Assembly (NCBI GenBank): GCA_025455045.1
Contig: JALONJ010000011.1
Location: 1 to 38,049 of the forward strand
Reading direction: 5' to 3'
Origin: Microscillaceae bacterium
GTDB lineage: Bacteria > Bacteroidota > Bacteroidia > Cytophagales > Microscillaceae
Length of the DNA stretch: 38,049 bases
Shown here in pieces: positions 4,438 through 17,318 of the stretch. How positions within the stretch are numbered: the stretch's first letter is position 1; each line of letters opens with the position of its first letter. The position numbers were made by a program, and so were the translations under genes. The notes beneath the pieces are model-generated. The model worked only from the letters and a program-made list of their open reading frames with translations. It was not told the DNA's origin and made no database searches.

Positions 4438-5355
4438 ATGTTGAATTGTTATTGGTTTTTTTCCAAAATCGCCAATCCTTGCCTAACTTTGGCACTATTT
4501 TCAATTTTAATAACTGTGCAAAATCCGATTATCGCTCAAAATTATTCCGACACTCAGCCGGCAATTTTACAAAAAGAAATTGTCTTAAAATCAAAATATT
4601 TGCATCGCCAAGTGCATATTACGGTTTTGTTACCGCCTCATTATGAGCAAGATAACCATCATTTTCCGGTTTTGTATTTGAACGATGGGCAGGACTTGCC
4701 GAAGCTGGAAATGACTCGTATTTTGGCAGATTTGTATCGAGACAACACCATTCCCCCTTTTATACTGGTGGGTATTCACGCTGATAAACATCGGATTCAG
4801 GAGTATGGCACGGCTTCGCAAGCCGACTACGCCCAGCGCGGTGCCAAAGCCGCAGCGCATACGCAATTTGTACTGGAAGAATTGATGCCTTTTTTGCAAC
4901 AAAACTTTAGGACAAAATCGGAGGCTGAAAACACATTTTTTGCCGGATTTTCTTTGGGTGGTTTATCGGCAATGGATATAGTGTGGCACCACGCCGATAA
5001 ATTTTCGCGGGCTGGCGTATTTTCGGGTTCTTTGTGGTGGCGGAGCAAACCCTACGAGGGCGGCTACAACGAAGATACCGACCGTATTATGCATAATTTG
5101 GTGCGCGAAGGGCAGTACAAGCCTAATTTAAGGTTTTGGTTACAAGCCGGTACCGATGACGAAACCGCCGACCGCAATAACAACGGTATCATTGATGCCA
5201 TTGATGATACTTTGGATTTAATCAAAGAATTAAAAAACAAAGGCTACCACGATGAGCAAATTGTGTATTATGAAATGCAGGGTGGCACTCACGACCAAGC
5301 TACTTGGGCTAAGGCAATGCCGGTGTTTTTGCAATGGTTGTTCAAAAAATCATAA
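4438..5355 (+). CDS. Secreted alpha/beta-hydrolase, putative esterase family
   Basis: A 305-residue protein of the esterase D/Fes/IroE-like family (Pfam putative esterase). An N-terminal hydrophobic segment (about 14-34, ending IIAQ) looks like a signal peptide, which places it outside the cytoplasm. The nucleophile elbow GFSLGG puts Ser at 172; Asp240 or Asp241 (AGTDD) and His285 (GGTHD) complete a plausible triad in the expected order. Family members hydrolyse esters ranging from ferric enterobactin to feruloyl and other acyl esters; the substrate here cannot be read from sequence. The stretch DRNNNGIIDAIDD (245-257) resembles a calcium-binding loop. Downstream are the inverted heptad arrays. 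Confidence 0.88.
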   Translation: MLNCYWFFSKIANPCLTLALFSILITVQNPIIAQNYSDTQPAILQKEIVLKSKYLHRQVHITVLLPPHYEQDNHHFPVLYLNDGQDLPKLEMTRILADLYRDNTIPPFILVGIHADKHRIQEYGTASQADYAQRGAKAAAHTQFVLEELMPFLQQNFRTKSEAENTFFAGFSLGGLSAMDIVWHHADKFSRAGVFSGSLWWRSKPYEGGYNEDTDRIMHNLVREGQYKPNLRFWLQAGTDDETADRNNNGIIDAIDDTLDLIKELKNKGYHDEQIVYYEMQGGTHDQATWAKAMPVFLQWLFKKS

Positions 5356-5392
5356 ATTTGCGCTGTACTTGATTTTTTGCCGGTGAAGTTTT

Positions 5393-5510
5393 TAGTTCCG
5401 AGTTTCTGGTTTCTAGTTCCGAGTTTCTGGCTTCTAGTTCCGAGTTTCTGGTTTCTAGTTCCGAGTTTCTGGTTTCTAGTTCCGAGTTTCTGGTTTCTAG
5501 TTCCGAGTTT
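5393..5510 (-). repeat. Tandem heptad array, left (21-bp higher-order unit, 5.6 copies)
   Basis: Five full 21-bp units plus 13 bp. Read on the minus strand, each unit is three heptads: AACTCGG, AACTAGA, AACCAGA. Only one base differs between units, so the array has amplified or homogenised recently. It lies in the opposite orientation to 5670-5879. Confidence 0.92.
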
Positions 5511-5669
5511 GCCCTGCTAAAAAGTCGGAAAAGCTGAATTGGTTTATTATCAATACTACAGACAGTTTTTTGTAAGCAATTGACTGTGTCTGCCTCTGGC
5601 TGATAATCAACAGGTTATGTTACGTCAAGTGTTTTGTGTAAATAACTGATTATTAGATACTTAGTAAAT

Positions 5670-5879
5670 AACTAGAAACTCGGAACTAGGAACTAGAAAC
5701 TCGGAACTAGGAACTCGGAACTAGAAACTAGAAACTAGAAACTAGGAACTAGAAACTAGGAACTAGAAACTAGAAACTAGGAACTAGAAACTCGGAACTA
5801 GAAACTCGGAACTAGAAACTCGGAATTCGGAACTCGGAACTAGAAACTCGGAACTCGGAATTCGGAACTAGAAACTCGG
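5670..5879 (+). repeat. Tandem heptad array, right (30 units)
   Basis: Thirty consecutive 7-bp units with no indel, all matching AAYTMGR: AACTAGA, AACTAGG and AACTCGG, plus two AATTCGG. The order of the types is irregular, unlike the regular 21-bp period of the left array. The array ends about 43 bp before the first possible start codon of the aldehyde dehydrogenase gene, so it occupies that gene's promoter or leader region. It resembles in style the heptameric short tandem repeats described in cyanobacteria. Confidence 0.93.
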
Positions 5880-5922
5880 AACTGCCCGAACTATTGTCAT
5901 TACTAATTTGGGCTTTTAAATA

Positions 5923-7377
5923 TTGATACAAGTGAAAAAAATTCAAAACTTCGTCAATGGCGAATATACCGCCCCTTTTGCCAAACATTATCTCGATAAT
6001 TATAATCCGGCTACCGGCGAAGTATATAGCCTAGTGCCGGACTCGGACGAAAAAGATGTAGAAATTGCTATGCAATATGCCCAAGCTACTTTCCCCAAGT
6101 GGGCAAGTACTTCGGTTGAGGTTCGTTCACGTATTTTATTGAAAATCAGTGAGTTAATTGAGAAAAACTTAGACAAATTTGCCGAAGCTGAAAGCATCGA
6201 TACCGGCAAACCCATTAGTCTGGCTCGGCAAATGGATATTCCGCGTGCCGCTACCAATTTTCGTTTTTTTGCTACGGCTATTCAGCACTACGCAACTGCC
6301 GCCCACGCCACCGACCATATCGCCATCAATTATACTTTGCGCCAGCCTTTGGGAGTGGTGGTTTGTATTTCGCCTTGGAATTTGCCCCTTTATTTGTTTA
6401 CTTGGAAAATCGCCCCCGCGATTGCCGCCGGAAACTGTGTGATAGCCAAACCCTCCGAAACTACCCCTATGACCGCCTATTTGTTGGGGGAAATTTGTCA
6501 AGAAGCCGGACTACCCGCCGGAGTTTTGAACATTTTGCACGGCTTGGGTAATAAAGTAGGCACGGCTTTGGTGGCGCACCCCGAAGTCAAAGCGATTTCT
6601 TTTACGGGTAGTACAGCCACTGGGGCTACCATAGCCAAACTAACGGCACCCCAATTCAAAAAAATATCTTTAGAAATGGGGGGCAAAAACCCCAATATCA
6701 TTTTTGCCGATTGCGATTATGATAAAATGCTCGAGACTACTTTACGTTCTTCGTTTGCCAATCAAGGGCAAATATGCTTGTGTGGCTCGCGGATATTGGT
6801 CGAGAGTTCGTTGTACGAGCGATTCAAAGCTGACTTTGTTGCCCACACTCGCCAACTCCAAGTCGGCGACCCGGCTTTTCCGGTTACTCAACAAGGAGCA
6901 ATTGTTTCGTCAGCCCATTTCCAAAAAATAATGAGCTATATAGACCTTGCCCAGCAAGAAGGCGGCAAAATACTGTGTGGAGGAGAAGCCATCAAGTTCT
7001 CGGGCAGGTGCGCCGGTGGTTGGTTTATCGCGCCTACCATTATCGAGAATCTGCCTATCGATTGTCGCACCAATCAAGAGGAAATATTTGGTCCGGTGGT
7101 GAGCATTATGCCTTTTGATACCGAAGCCGATGCCCTCAAATACGCCAATGGAGTGCGTTATGGCTTGTCGGCTACCATTTGGACACAAAACACCGCCCGC
7201 GCCCACCGCCTAGCCGCCCAGATACAGGCAGGAGTCGTATGGGTCAATTGCTGGCTTTTGCGCGATTTGCGCACGCCTTTTGGGGGAATGAAAGACTCGG
7301 GCATTGGGCGCGAAGGCGGCTGGGAAGCCCTCAACTTTTTTACCGAAGCCAAAAATGTGTGTATCAAATACGATTGA
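5923..7377 (+). CDS. NAD-dependent aldehyde dehydrogenase, ALDH8 / 2-aminomuconate or 2-hydroxymuconate semialdehyde type
   Basis: A 484-residue cytosolic enzyme of full family length. Visible landmarks are PWN (Asn153), Lys176 in the cofactor loop, FTGS (227-230), EMGG with general base Glu251, and QGQIC with catalytic Cys285. The segments SIDTGKPISLA (91-101) and WVNCWLLRDLRTPFGG near the C-terminus are typical of the subgroup that oxidises 2-aminomuconate or 2-hydroxymuconate semialdehyde, in kynurenine or meta-cleavage degradation. No ATG start exists: the frame opens at TTG (5923), with a GTG at 5932 (VKKIQNFVNGE) as an equally good or better start. No other kynurenine-pathway gene is in the window. 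The heptad array directly upstream may affect its expression. Confidence 0.9.
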   Translation: MIQVKKIQNFVNGEYTAPFAKHYLDNYNPATGEVYSLVPDSDEKDVEIAMQYAQATFPKWASTSVEVRSRILLKISELIEKNLDKFAEAESIDTGKPISLARQMDIPRAATNFRFFATAIQHYATAAHATDHIAINYTLRQPLGVVVCISPWNLPLYLFTWKIAPAIAAGNCVIAKPSETTPMTAYLLGEICQEAGLPAGVLNILHGLGNKVGTALVAHPEVKAISFTGSTATGATIAKLTAPQFKKISLEMGGKNPNIIFADCDYDKMLETTLRSSFANQGQICLCGSRILVESSLYERFKADFVAHTRQLQVGDPAFPVTQQGAIVSSAHFQKIMSYIDLAQQEGGKILCGGEAIKFSGRCAGGWFIAPTIIENLPIDCRTNQEEIFGPVVSIMPFDTEADALKYANGVRYGLSATIWTQNTARAHRLAAQIQAGVVWVNCWLLRDLRTPFGGMKDSGIGREGGWEALNFFTEAKNVCIKYD

Positions 7378-8546
7378 AATTATGAGCTAATCAATTGATT
7401 TTCAAATATTTACAAGATTTTTGCTTCTTCGCTACTTTTTAGGAAAATTGTAACGCGAGCTGTCTAGCCTGCGCACGCAAATGAGTTTAGGTTTAGCATA
7501 AAGCTAGAGTTTCCTGAATATGGGTAAAGATTCGTTTTTTGATAATATACTGGCAACTACGGAGAAGTATTATAATTCATTGACCGTGTTCGCCTCTGGT
7601 GGATTTTAAGTTATGTATTGTATGTTTCTTTTACCACAAAGCCCACTAAGTTCACACAAAGATCACTAAGGAATGAATAGTGAATAATGTAGAGTGAATA
7701 ATTTTTTAATTACTTGAAAATCAAGACTTTATCAAAAATATTGTACGCATTATTTGGTTCTTGTTACTAACAATACTTCGGACAGATTTTTGTAAGTAAT
7801 TGATAATCAAGTAGTTATACTACTTCAAGTGTTTTGTGTAACTAGCTGATTATCAGATACTTAGTAAATAACTCGGAACAGAACCTCCGCCTCTGGCGGA
7901 GCAGGGGGCTTAGAAACTAGAAACTGTCCGAACTATTGTACTAAGTAATTTACTTGGTGAACCTTTGTGGGTATTTTTTAGTGAACTTGGTGGTAAATCA
8001 GCTTTTAAAATGGCTAATTGGGGCTTTCAAAAGTTCATTTTAGGGATATACAAATCGCTCTAGCGGCTAAATCATCAATTATTTGAGATTTCCGTAGTTG
8101 TCAGAATATAGGAAATTTGAAAAATTTGATAGCCGATAATTGTTTTGAAAAATCATTCCTAAATAAGCCAATATAAAATTCCCCATTCGGGAGTTAGGAG
8201 GCTTTAGCATTTTCTAAAATTTGTAAAAAAAATATTGAAAAAAATTATCTCTTTGGCTATCAAGTAGTTAAGAATATAAACAAAAACCTTCGATTGCAAT
8301 TTAGAGTTTTTATCAAGATATTTGTAAATGAATTTAGTAAATACGTAACTAACTGATTTTCAATTAGTTATATTATTTTTGTGTTTTTGAAAGTTTAAAT
8401 ATTAATTTTCAAATAATTGGCGCAATTGATATGCTTTTAAGCATCATTTTTGAACGAATAATGCGTAGTGTATAATCTTTAATGCTCAACAAACCCCTAA
8501 TTAAGTATTTGGTAAACGAAAAAACGATAAACGCATAAAAATAAAT
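7378..8546. repeat. Long intergenic region with nested repeats
   Basis: No gene is supported in 1169 bases. Contents: a diverged family A copy (7393-7415); family B in reverse (7423-7533); a family A copy with 20-bp cap insert (7571-7615); the two halves of a family D repeat (7629-7671 and 7955-8000) that look split by the material between them; family C (7672-7770); the second copy of the duplicated block (7771-7952) with family A cores at 7801-7809 and 7847-7855; and a diverged family A copy at 8345-8372. From 8000 to 8340 I see only AT-rich DNA without clear structure. Confidence 0.65.
7423..7533 (-). repeat. Family B dispersed repeat, copy 2 (reverse)
   Basis: Reads on the minus strand as the roughly 108-bp family: GAATCTTTACCCATATTCAG at one end, hairpin GCAGGCTAGACAGC in the middle, GTTACAATTTTCCT towards the other end. 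It lies about 45 bp downstream of the aldehyde dehydrogenase stop codon. Confidence 0.72.
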
Positions 8547-16080: not shown

Positions 16081-17318
16081 TGGATATGGAGTAAAAAATT
16101 ACAAATTGAATTTTAAAATTATGGTGTATAAGTAAAAAAGTAAAAATGATTGGTCAAGAAGCCAAAATAGCAACTTGATTGGTAAAGCAAAGTAAAAACC
16201 ATCGATGATTGCTCAGCCGAATAATTTATGCCGGAAGTCTAAGTAAAATAAATATTTTTAAAAACCCGCGCTATCCCAAACCTAAAAAAATGTTAATATC
16301 CATAAGTATTTGATAATCAGGTAGTTGTGAATTTACTGAATTTTGAAAAATATTGTACGCTCAACCTTGGTTTGTGGCACATCATAGCTGAATATAATCT
16401 CCGAAAAGGTTTTGAAGAATCATTTTTCAAAAAGATACTTGCAATTAATTGGGGTAGATAAACCGCCCAATTAAGCATAGTAAGAGATACAAAATAAAGT
16501 AACACTTTTAAAAATATAATTAATGTGAAAATCCTCCAAAGGCGGACACCGTCAGGTAATTAAATAATTTCTAATTCCTAATTGTTAATTGACAATTCCA
16601 TATTTTGATGGCTGTCAAAATTTTATACCCGAAAAAACACAGTTTATGCCCCCAATTCAGCCGCTTATGCCTTTTGTTTGGAAGGTTCAAAATTCTTTTT
16701 CAAATTGCCGAACTAAACAATAGTTGGCAAATCATTCCAAATTATTGCAAATCAATGATAAAAACAAAGCCAAAAAGTTGAAGTTTGACGCTTTAAAATG
16801 GACATTAATCGAAAAAATCGCACTTTCTAGTATCTTAACTCGTTAATTGTTCCAATGCTTGAAAGACAAAAAGAATGAGATTTTATGGGTTAAATGGATT
16901 GGAAACAAATTGATAATTAATTGATTATCAGTTTATTACATATATTGAATATGAACTCAAATTGCTCACAGCCTTTGAGTGATTTGGAATTATGCTTATA
17001 TTATGTTTATTTTGCGACAAACTTGCATATTCCAACATTCTAATCCTCCACAAATAATCATTTTTTTAACTTTATATCCATAAGCAAAAAAAAGCGTTTG
17101 AGCAAATTATTTTAATAAATGAAATAACACCCTTTAGGTTCTCGACATATTTGCAGGAATTATTTAGCTTAGATTTGGGCTAAAAGCCGTTTACGTGTGC
17201 GGGCTAGACAGCCTGCGTTACAATTTTCCCCCAAAATGTGTAAAGAACCTGAATCTCTAAAATTTTGACAAGAAAAATCGCACCAATCTTTTAATACATA
17301 ATTATTTTAAATAAATTT
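16081..17318. repeat. 1.2-kb intergenic region upstream of the T9SS cargo gene
   Basis: No gene is supported; a 62-codon reverse frame at 16317-16505 has no recognisable features. It holds family A cores at 16311-16319 and 16922-16930, a family A palindrome split by a 20-bp GC-rich insert (16516-16562, insert 16532-16551), and family B (17137-17249). Between 16600 and 16900 a short ATG-less frame ending LSSILTR lies in otherwise featureless DNA; I cannot tell whether it is a gene remnant. Confidence 0.6.
17137..17249 (+). repeat. Family B dispersed repeat, copy 3
   Basis: Starts GGTTCTCGACATATTTGCAG and ends GTGTAAAGAACC, so the two ends are imperfect inverted repeats (GGTTCT with AGAACC, and AGGAATT with AATTTTCC further in). 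The central stem is GGGCTAGACAGCCTGC. It lies 69 bp upstream of the large cargo gene. Confidence 0.75.

Follow-up and report, generated by a model that had tools for sequence, protein, structure and literature searches.

The repeats studied here have their closest precedent in BrickBuilt, a MITE of Porphyromonas gingivalis that bears a minisatellite and has 19 copies, ends GAGACCTTCGCA, a 23-bp unit whose tandem repeat number ranges from 1 to 22.8, target duplications of inconsistent length in three of four copies, and promoter elements within its segments (PMC4596501). Heptamers of the form TAACTGA (AACTGAT) have been described in Beggiatoaceae, Cyanobacteria and five Bacteroidetes; in the Beggiatoaceae, they represent a single fixed unit in 2-6 copies, located on the sense strand and in most cases shortly before a start codon (PMC4679880). 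The GGGAATC and GGGGA(C/T)T heptamers of Xanthomonas and Nostoc are G-rich and quadruplex-forming (PMC4692102), and no heptamer class was found among the triplex repeats (PMC4666352). A literature search with the arrays' own sequences returned only primers and unrelated text. A preliminary description of this DNA stated that no equivalent was known from the phylum, which was too strong, given TAACTGA in five Bacteroidetes (PMC4679880) and BrickBuilt in P. gingivalis (PMC4596501).

The window, i.e., the whole stretch of 38,049 nucleotides that was analysed, is contig 204 in an assembly of 6.8 Mb and 697 contigs. The following features are of concern here:

4438-5355, plus strand: upstream esterase-family gene (PF00756, E 6.6e-37)
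5384-5509, minus strand: left heptad array with the 21-bp unit AACTCGG-AACTAGA-AACCAGA, outside the MITE (from the sequence)
5510-5550, no strand: unique sequence of 41 bp from the left array to the MITE (from the sequence)
5551-5896, plus strand: MITE copy of 346 bp with terminal inverted repeats (ends CAATACTACAGACAGTT / AACTGCCCGAACTATTG), including the right heptad array
5670-5883, plus strand: right heptad array, 30 AAYTMGR heptads and a terminal AACT, with AGTAAAT before it and the right terminal repeat after it
5932-7377, plus strand: aldehyde dehydrogenase gene downstream of the array (PF00171, E 3.6e-168; 61-68% identity to orthologues in relatives)
7771-7938, plus strand: second MITE copy of 168 bp with a TACTAA duplication and a palindromic insert within its heptad stretch

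The right array consists, as first described, of 30 AAYTMGR heptads in perfect register at 5670-5879 (13 AACTAGA, 10 AACTCGG, 5 AACTAGG and 2 AATTCGG), with the terminal AACT at 5880-5883. The order of the heptads had seemed free, but adjacent units differ more than in shuffled arrays (neighbour identity at lag 1 of 0.14 vs 0.31, with 99.5% of shuffles at or above the observed value), and since neighbours are seldom alike, this order fits growth from an alternating AACTCGG/AACTAGA pair. The left array is indeed of the complementary type and in opposite orientation, with the 21-bp unit present in 5.9 copies at 5388-5510 (some 18 heptads, degenerate at the ends, over 5384-5509); it contains AACCAGA units, which are missing from the right array. 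The two arrays are separated as reported, but the supposed 159-bp spacer in fact comprises a unique stretch of about 41 bp and the body of the MITE.

We consider it highly probable that the intergenic MITE at 5551-5896 has the right array as its own heptad tract, grown in place, with the left array being separate and the effect on the neighbouring gene passive. The first part, a MITE with an internal minisatellite, is very well supported. The array had originally been treated as free-standing; instead, it is the overgrown heptad bulge of an element whose ends are common to more than 100 copies. Terminal inverted repeats of CAATASTTCGGACAGTT occur at both ends of this element, and in the window copy 13 of 17 positions match as inverted repeats, with no clean target-site duplication (flanks TATTAT / TCATTA). 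The window copy shares its architecture with 118 further elements that have both ends in the sampled genome, giving 119 two-ended relatives in 0.9 Mb of loci, which were chosen for arrays, so that MITE and array counts are not unbiased genome densities; by extrapolation from this sample and about 200 array starts, the whole genome might hold hundreds. Standard copies are non-coding, about 128-138 bp long (consensus from aligned loci CAATACTTCGGACAGTTTTTATAAGTAATTGATTATCAGCTAGTTATG...ATGTAACTAGCTGATTATCAGATACTTAGTAAATAACTCGGAACTAGAAACTGTCCGAACTATTG), and carry 1-4 heptads flanked as in the window copy, the first heptad being preceded by AGTAAAT and the last followed by GTCCGAACTATTG at many loci. 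Target-site duplications of at least 5 bp (5-7 bp class) were found in 47 of the 119 elements (shuffled flanks: mean 1.5, maximum 6 in 1000 trials). The family has the terminal inverted repeats, target-site duplications and small, multi-copy form without coding capacity expected of a MITE. In a subfamily B, which has the ends CAATACTTCGTGGA...TCCACGAACTATTG, these heptads likewise precede the right end.

The number of heptads per MITE was 1-4 in 107 elements and at least 5 in nine (three unscored, n=119), and the 30 heptads of the window copy are the largest tract seen among the copies. The consensus element folds into a single hairpin (-50 kcal/mol, z -10) with near-perfectly paired arms, in which the heptads, normally AACTCGG-AACTAGA-AACT, are predicted to bulge from the 3' arm near the 3' end, and from this model an expansion of the bulge would leave the hairpin intact. 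In a few copies, and most in the window copy, slippage or unequal exchange probably lengthened the tract where it stood, by 7, 14 or 21 bp at a time, the heptads of long arrays descending from two founder units; the left array would have arisen as a separate expansion in opposite orientation, and the pair could then fold together. If arrays grew in place, each long array should have its own higher-order unit. Such private units were of 14 bp in L068 and L176 and of 21 bp in L060, L071, L126 and the left array of the window; they include AACTCGG-AACTAGA, AACTCGG-AACTAGA-AACTAGA and AACTCGG-AACTAGA-AACCCGA, and AACTCGG-AATCAGA in L154. Local slippage or unequal exchange accounts for the private units better than a spread of ready-made arrays would, and the comparison between copies suggests expansion in place. 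Three long arrays lie at contig ends, which fits the trouble of assembly with long repeats. One element family thus displays the stages from 1-4 to 30 heptads and can reveal the birth of a minisatellite inside a bacterial transposon.

A search of the genome for AAYTMGR arrays, suggested in the preliminary description, gave, far beyond chance, 404 matches to the three-heptad pattern and none to the reversed control pattern, and 160 of 161 arrays were located outside predicted genes (simple ORF caller). As tandem 7-bp units that are intergenic and genome-wide, the arrays also belong with the heptameric simple sequence repeats (STRR/LSSR class). They might be free-standing heptad satellites generated by polymerase slippage, one of which the MITE captured or was built on. 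The terminal motif CGAACTATTG directly follows 98 of the 161 AACT-type arrays (it precedes only one), but it is missing from the other 63, some of which may have no tie to a MITE. Assemblies labelled Nitrospiraceae, Verrucomicrobia and Prevotella contain the same 21-mer with no MITE, each time with an inverted heptad arm upstream. The MITE cannot, therefore, be the sole origin of the heptads. Of the 395 phylum genomes sampled, 168 had arrays of three AACTNNN heptads plus AACT, with varied NNN. However, the right array has the shared MITE ends, and AAYTMGR triplets turned up, apart from this genome, in only two genomes of the relatives search (37 with this one) and in two of the phylum (395 with this one), so that the abundance of the MAGR form is peculiar to this genome. 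The consensus MITE itself had nothing beyond short, weak matches when compared with the 56 other genomes of the relatives search. We regard an origin as free-standing satellites as possible, though rather doubtful for this locus, and continue to favour growth inside the MITE.

That the two arrays could pair, as had been proposed, is upheld in silico: the predicted RNA fold of 5384-5896 has -237 kcal/mol vs -129 for shuffled sequences (z -18.8), and the expanded bulge of the window copy would be able to pair with the left array instead of remaining a bulge. The inverted pair could have arisen as one unit, i.e., a long palindrome such as a terminator or a recombination product; arrays in opposite orientation within 600 bp of AACT arrays in this genome lie upstream in 19 cases and downstream in three, the same polarity as in compact hairpins elsewhere. 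We find such a joint origin improbable, however, for AACCAGA units are confined to the left array, the left end of the MITE sits between the arrays, and no compact three-heptad AGTT/AACT pair (loop of at most 30 bases) was found in this genome. The left array is better seen, if tentatively, as a separate expansion in opposite orientation, perhaps a decayed copy or relic of MITE subfamily B: AACTTCACCGGC at its 3' edge is similar to the right end of this subfamily in a decayed state (AACTTCACGAACTATTG), as it is to other decayed ends of subfamily B, e.g., AACTTCACAGGCTATTG in L090.

The arrays do lie upstream of an aldehyde dehydrogenase gene, and TTG 5923, at which translation could start at the earliest, is indeed located 43 bp past the right array, an alternative being GTG 5932 (MKKIQNFVNGEY...), which is the likelier start. 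With the array end only 43-52 bp from the start codon and strong pairing predicted, the arrays could be a cis-regulatory leader of this gene in which copy number or a hairpin of both arrays tunes transcription or translation. Expanded arrays face start codons more often than short ones (right end beside a start vs a stop codon: 28 vs 19 in expanded, 27 vs 54 in short arrays; Fisher p 0.005, uncorrected), and promoter elements are known in BrickBuilt segments (PMC4596501). By analogy, the MITE could carry a promoter. Against a leader, the upstream regions of orthologous aldehyde dehydrogenases had neither heptads nor MITE in 11 of 11 relatives, in which no esterase gene was found beside the orthologue either, and the same repeat family occurs at many unrelated loci, often by stop codons. 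The arrays are therefore not a conserved leader of the aldehyde dehydrogenase, and we reject this candidate; the right array, once presented as a feature linked to this gene, is one of a genome-wide family. A leader function in this genome seems unlikely to us, and conservation lends no support to a switch of expression by array length, possible though it is. Since the orthologues do without the repeats and the intergenic gap of 576 bp shrinks to about 104 bp (28 + 41 + 35) when they are subtracted, passive insertion is likelier than a dedicated switch: most likely, insertions widened the gap from about 100 to 576 bp and put a structured element before the gene. The right ends of short arrays tend to sit about 35 bp from a stop codon (loci L039-L181), and this could reflect target choice near transcript ends.

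In its non-coding, intergenic nature, inverted-repeat ends, imperfect internal tandem repeat of variable copy number and lack of an internal transposase, the family resembles BrickBuilt, but it differs in its 7-bp unit, CAATASTTCGG ends, duplications of 5-7 bp in many copies and the position of the heptads as a bulge of a hairpin arm. It does not belong to BrickBuilt, as the 23-bp repeat and the BrickBuilt ends are absent. No autonomous partner with the MITE ends was found among the PF01609 (DDE_Tnp_1) loci of the genome, the sole transposase family checked; five such loci were rejected as parents, their inverted repeats being different or none of them matching. REPs depend on RAYT transposases. 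REP/REPIN (PMC3116915) and BOX-type repeats are likewise dispersed, intergenic, hairpin-forming and non-autonomous but have no heptad tract. The TAACTGA repeats are also intergenic, contain AACT, mix several heptads in one array and, in some Bacteroidetes, form long arrays; no MITE is reported in the portion consulted (PMC4679880), and the window units (AACTAGA, AACTCGG, AACTAGG and AATTCGG) are not TAACTGA. The Xanthomonas and Nostoc heptamers are similarly genome-wide, intergenic and near gene ends, and vary in length between close relatives, but the window heptads lack G-tracts (PMC4692102). Read from AATC, however, GGGAATC becomes AATCGGG, which has the AAYYNNN form of the window heptads (PMC4692102).

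This form leads to a more general reading, to which we give slightly less than even probability: the window arrays could locally represent a widespread class of intergenic heptads that has gone undescribed (5' arm RRTTNNN, 3' arm AAYYNNN, period 7, one polarity), produced by an anchor-specific process (a binding protein or templated synthesis) rather than by plain slippage, with the unit having been taken up by MITEs of this genome. Heptads of these two forms were seen again in hairpins from many unrelated microbes, and the AAYYNNN unit fits this wider, cross-phylum set. In 2.9 million viral contigs, compact hairpins of repeated AGTTNNN followed by repeated AACTNNN had 52 matches (47-48 distinct ones, a few contigs being near duplicates) and the opposite polarity none; periods of 8 and 6 had four and two matches, respectively, vs 52 for period 7. 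GATT..AATC hairpins were as common (63 vs none in the opposite polarity), so that AACT as the only anchor is rejected; ACTT..AAGT hairpins had no match in these contigs, and the reversed control TTGA..TCAA had 18, in part related heptads read in a shifted register. One heptad further out on the right arm, at a place outside the selection, the anchor was kept (A 75, A 79, C 77 and T 81%), and the commonest base of the other three positions reached only about 33-40%, which points to an anchor-specific process and not to plain slippage; on the left arm, the anchor signal fades sooner outward. The hairpins are located mostly between co-directional genes, at a median of about 10-25 bp from gene ends. 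Hairpins of the type RRTTNNN..loop..AAYYNNN with absolute polarity and period 7 were observed in viral contigs L272-L323 and L341-L403, at about 30-69% GC.

Among 54 AACTNNN clusters, an inverted arm was found upstream in 24 and downstream in one (both arms of a pair counted separately). In 691 internal heptads of this genome (called by a match to AAYTMGR at five of seven positions), positions 1-2 are A (98-99%), position 3 is C/T, and position 4 is T/C with 2% A. The window arrays fit this grammar, with an AAYY anchor, three variable last positions and the AGTT arm 5' of the AACT arm. The kinship in kind with other bacterial heptamer repeats, of which the preliminary description named the cyanobacterial ones, also finds support. 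TAACTGA and GGGAATC fit AAYYNNN in a shifted register (GGGGA(C/T)T only as GAYTGGG). We found no published statement of a polarity or anchor rule in the open-access literature; such a rule would link heptamer repeats that were described separately. Slippage alone predicts neither that a 4-base anchor stays fixed next to three variable positions nor the zero count for the opposite polarity, and the preference of bacterial genomes for 7-base tandem repeats, so far ascribed to polymerase slippage, becomes testable. The general grammar is the more surprising part, and remains tentative: it needs an unbiased scan before being called a class. The reversed-pattern control of the AACTNNN search in the phylum was imperfect, because units such as AACTATC match the reversed pattern too. 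Some phylum genomes had dozens of AACTNNN matches (106 in G407; also G194, G254 and G226), with this genome at the top (346).

Other short repeats were seen along with the MITE family. Small palindromic inserts (of the CCGCCTCTGGCGG type, also GAACCTCCGCCTCTGGCGGAGCAGGGGGCTTAGAAACT) are nested inside MITE copies, some within the heptad tract (window 7771-7938; L042, L046 and L078). A palindrome YTGATWATCAR, followed by about four bases and TTA, occurs at very many intergenic sites inside and outside MITEs (L039-L078, e.g., L046:1459-1597; window 5551-5669) and could be a short repeat or terminator unit in its own right. A third heptad family, in which ATTATTTAATTACTTGATTTTCAATTAATTATATTTTTAAAA comes after AATTAGG-AATTAGA and the CGAACTATTG end is lacking, is present in the window at about 16565-16583 (minus strand) and among 65 AATT-type arrays, and is likely another dispersed element.
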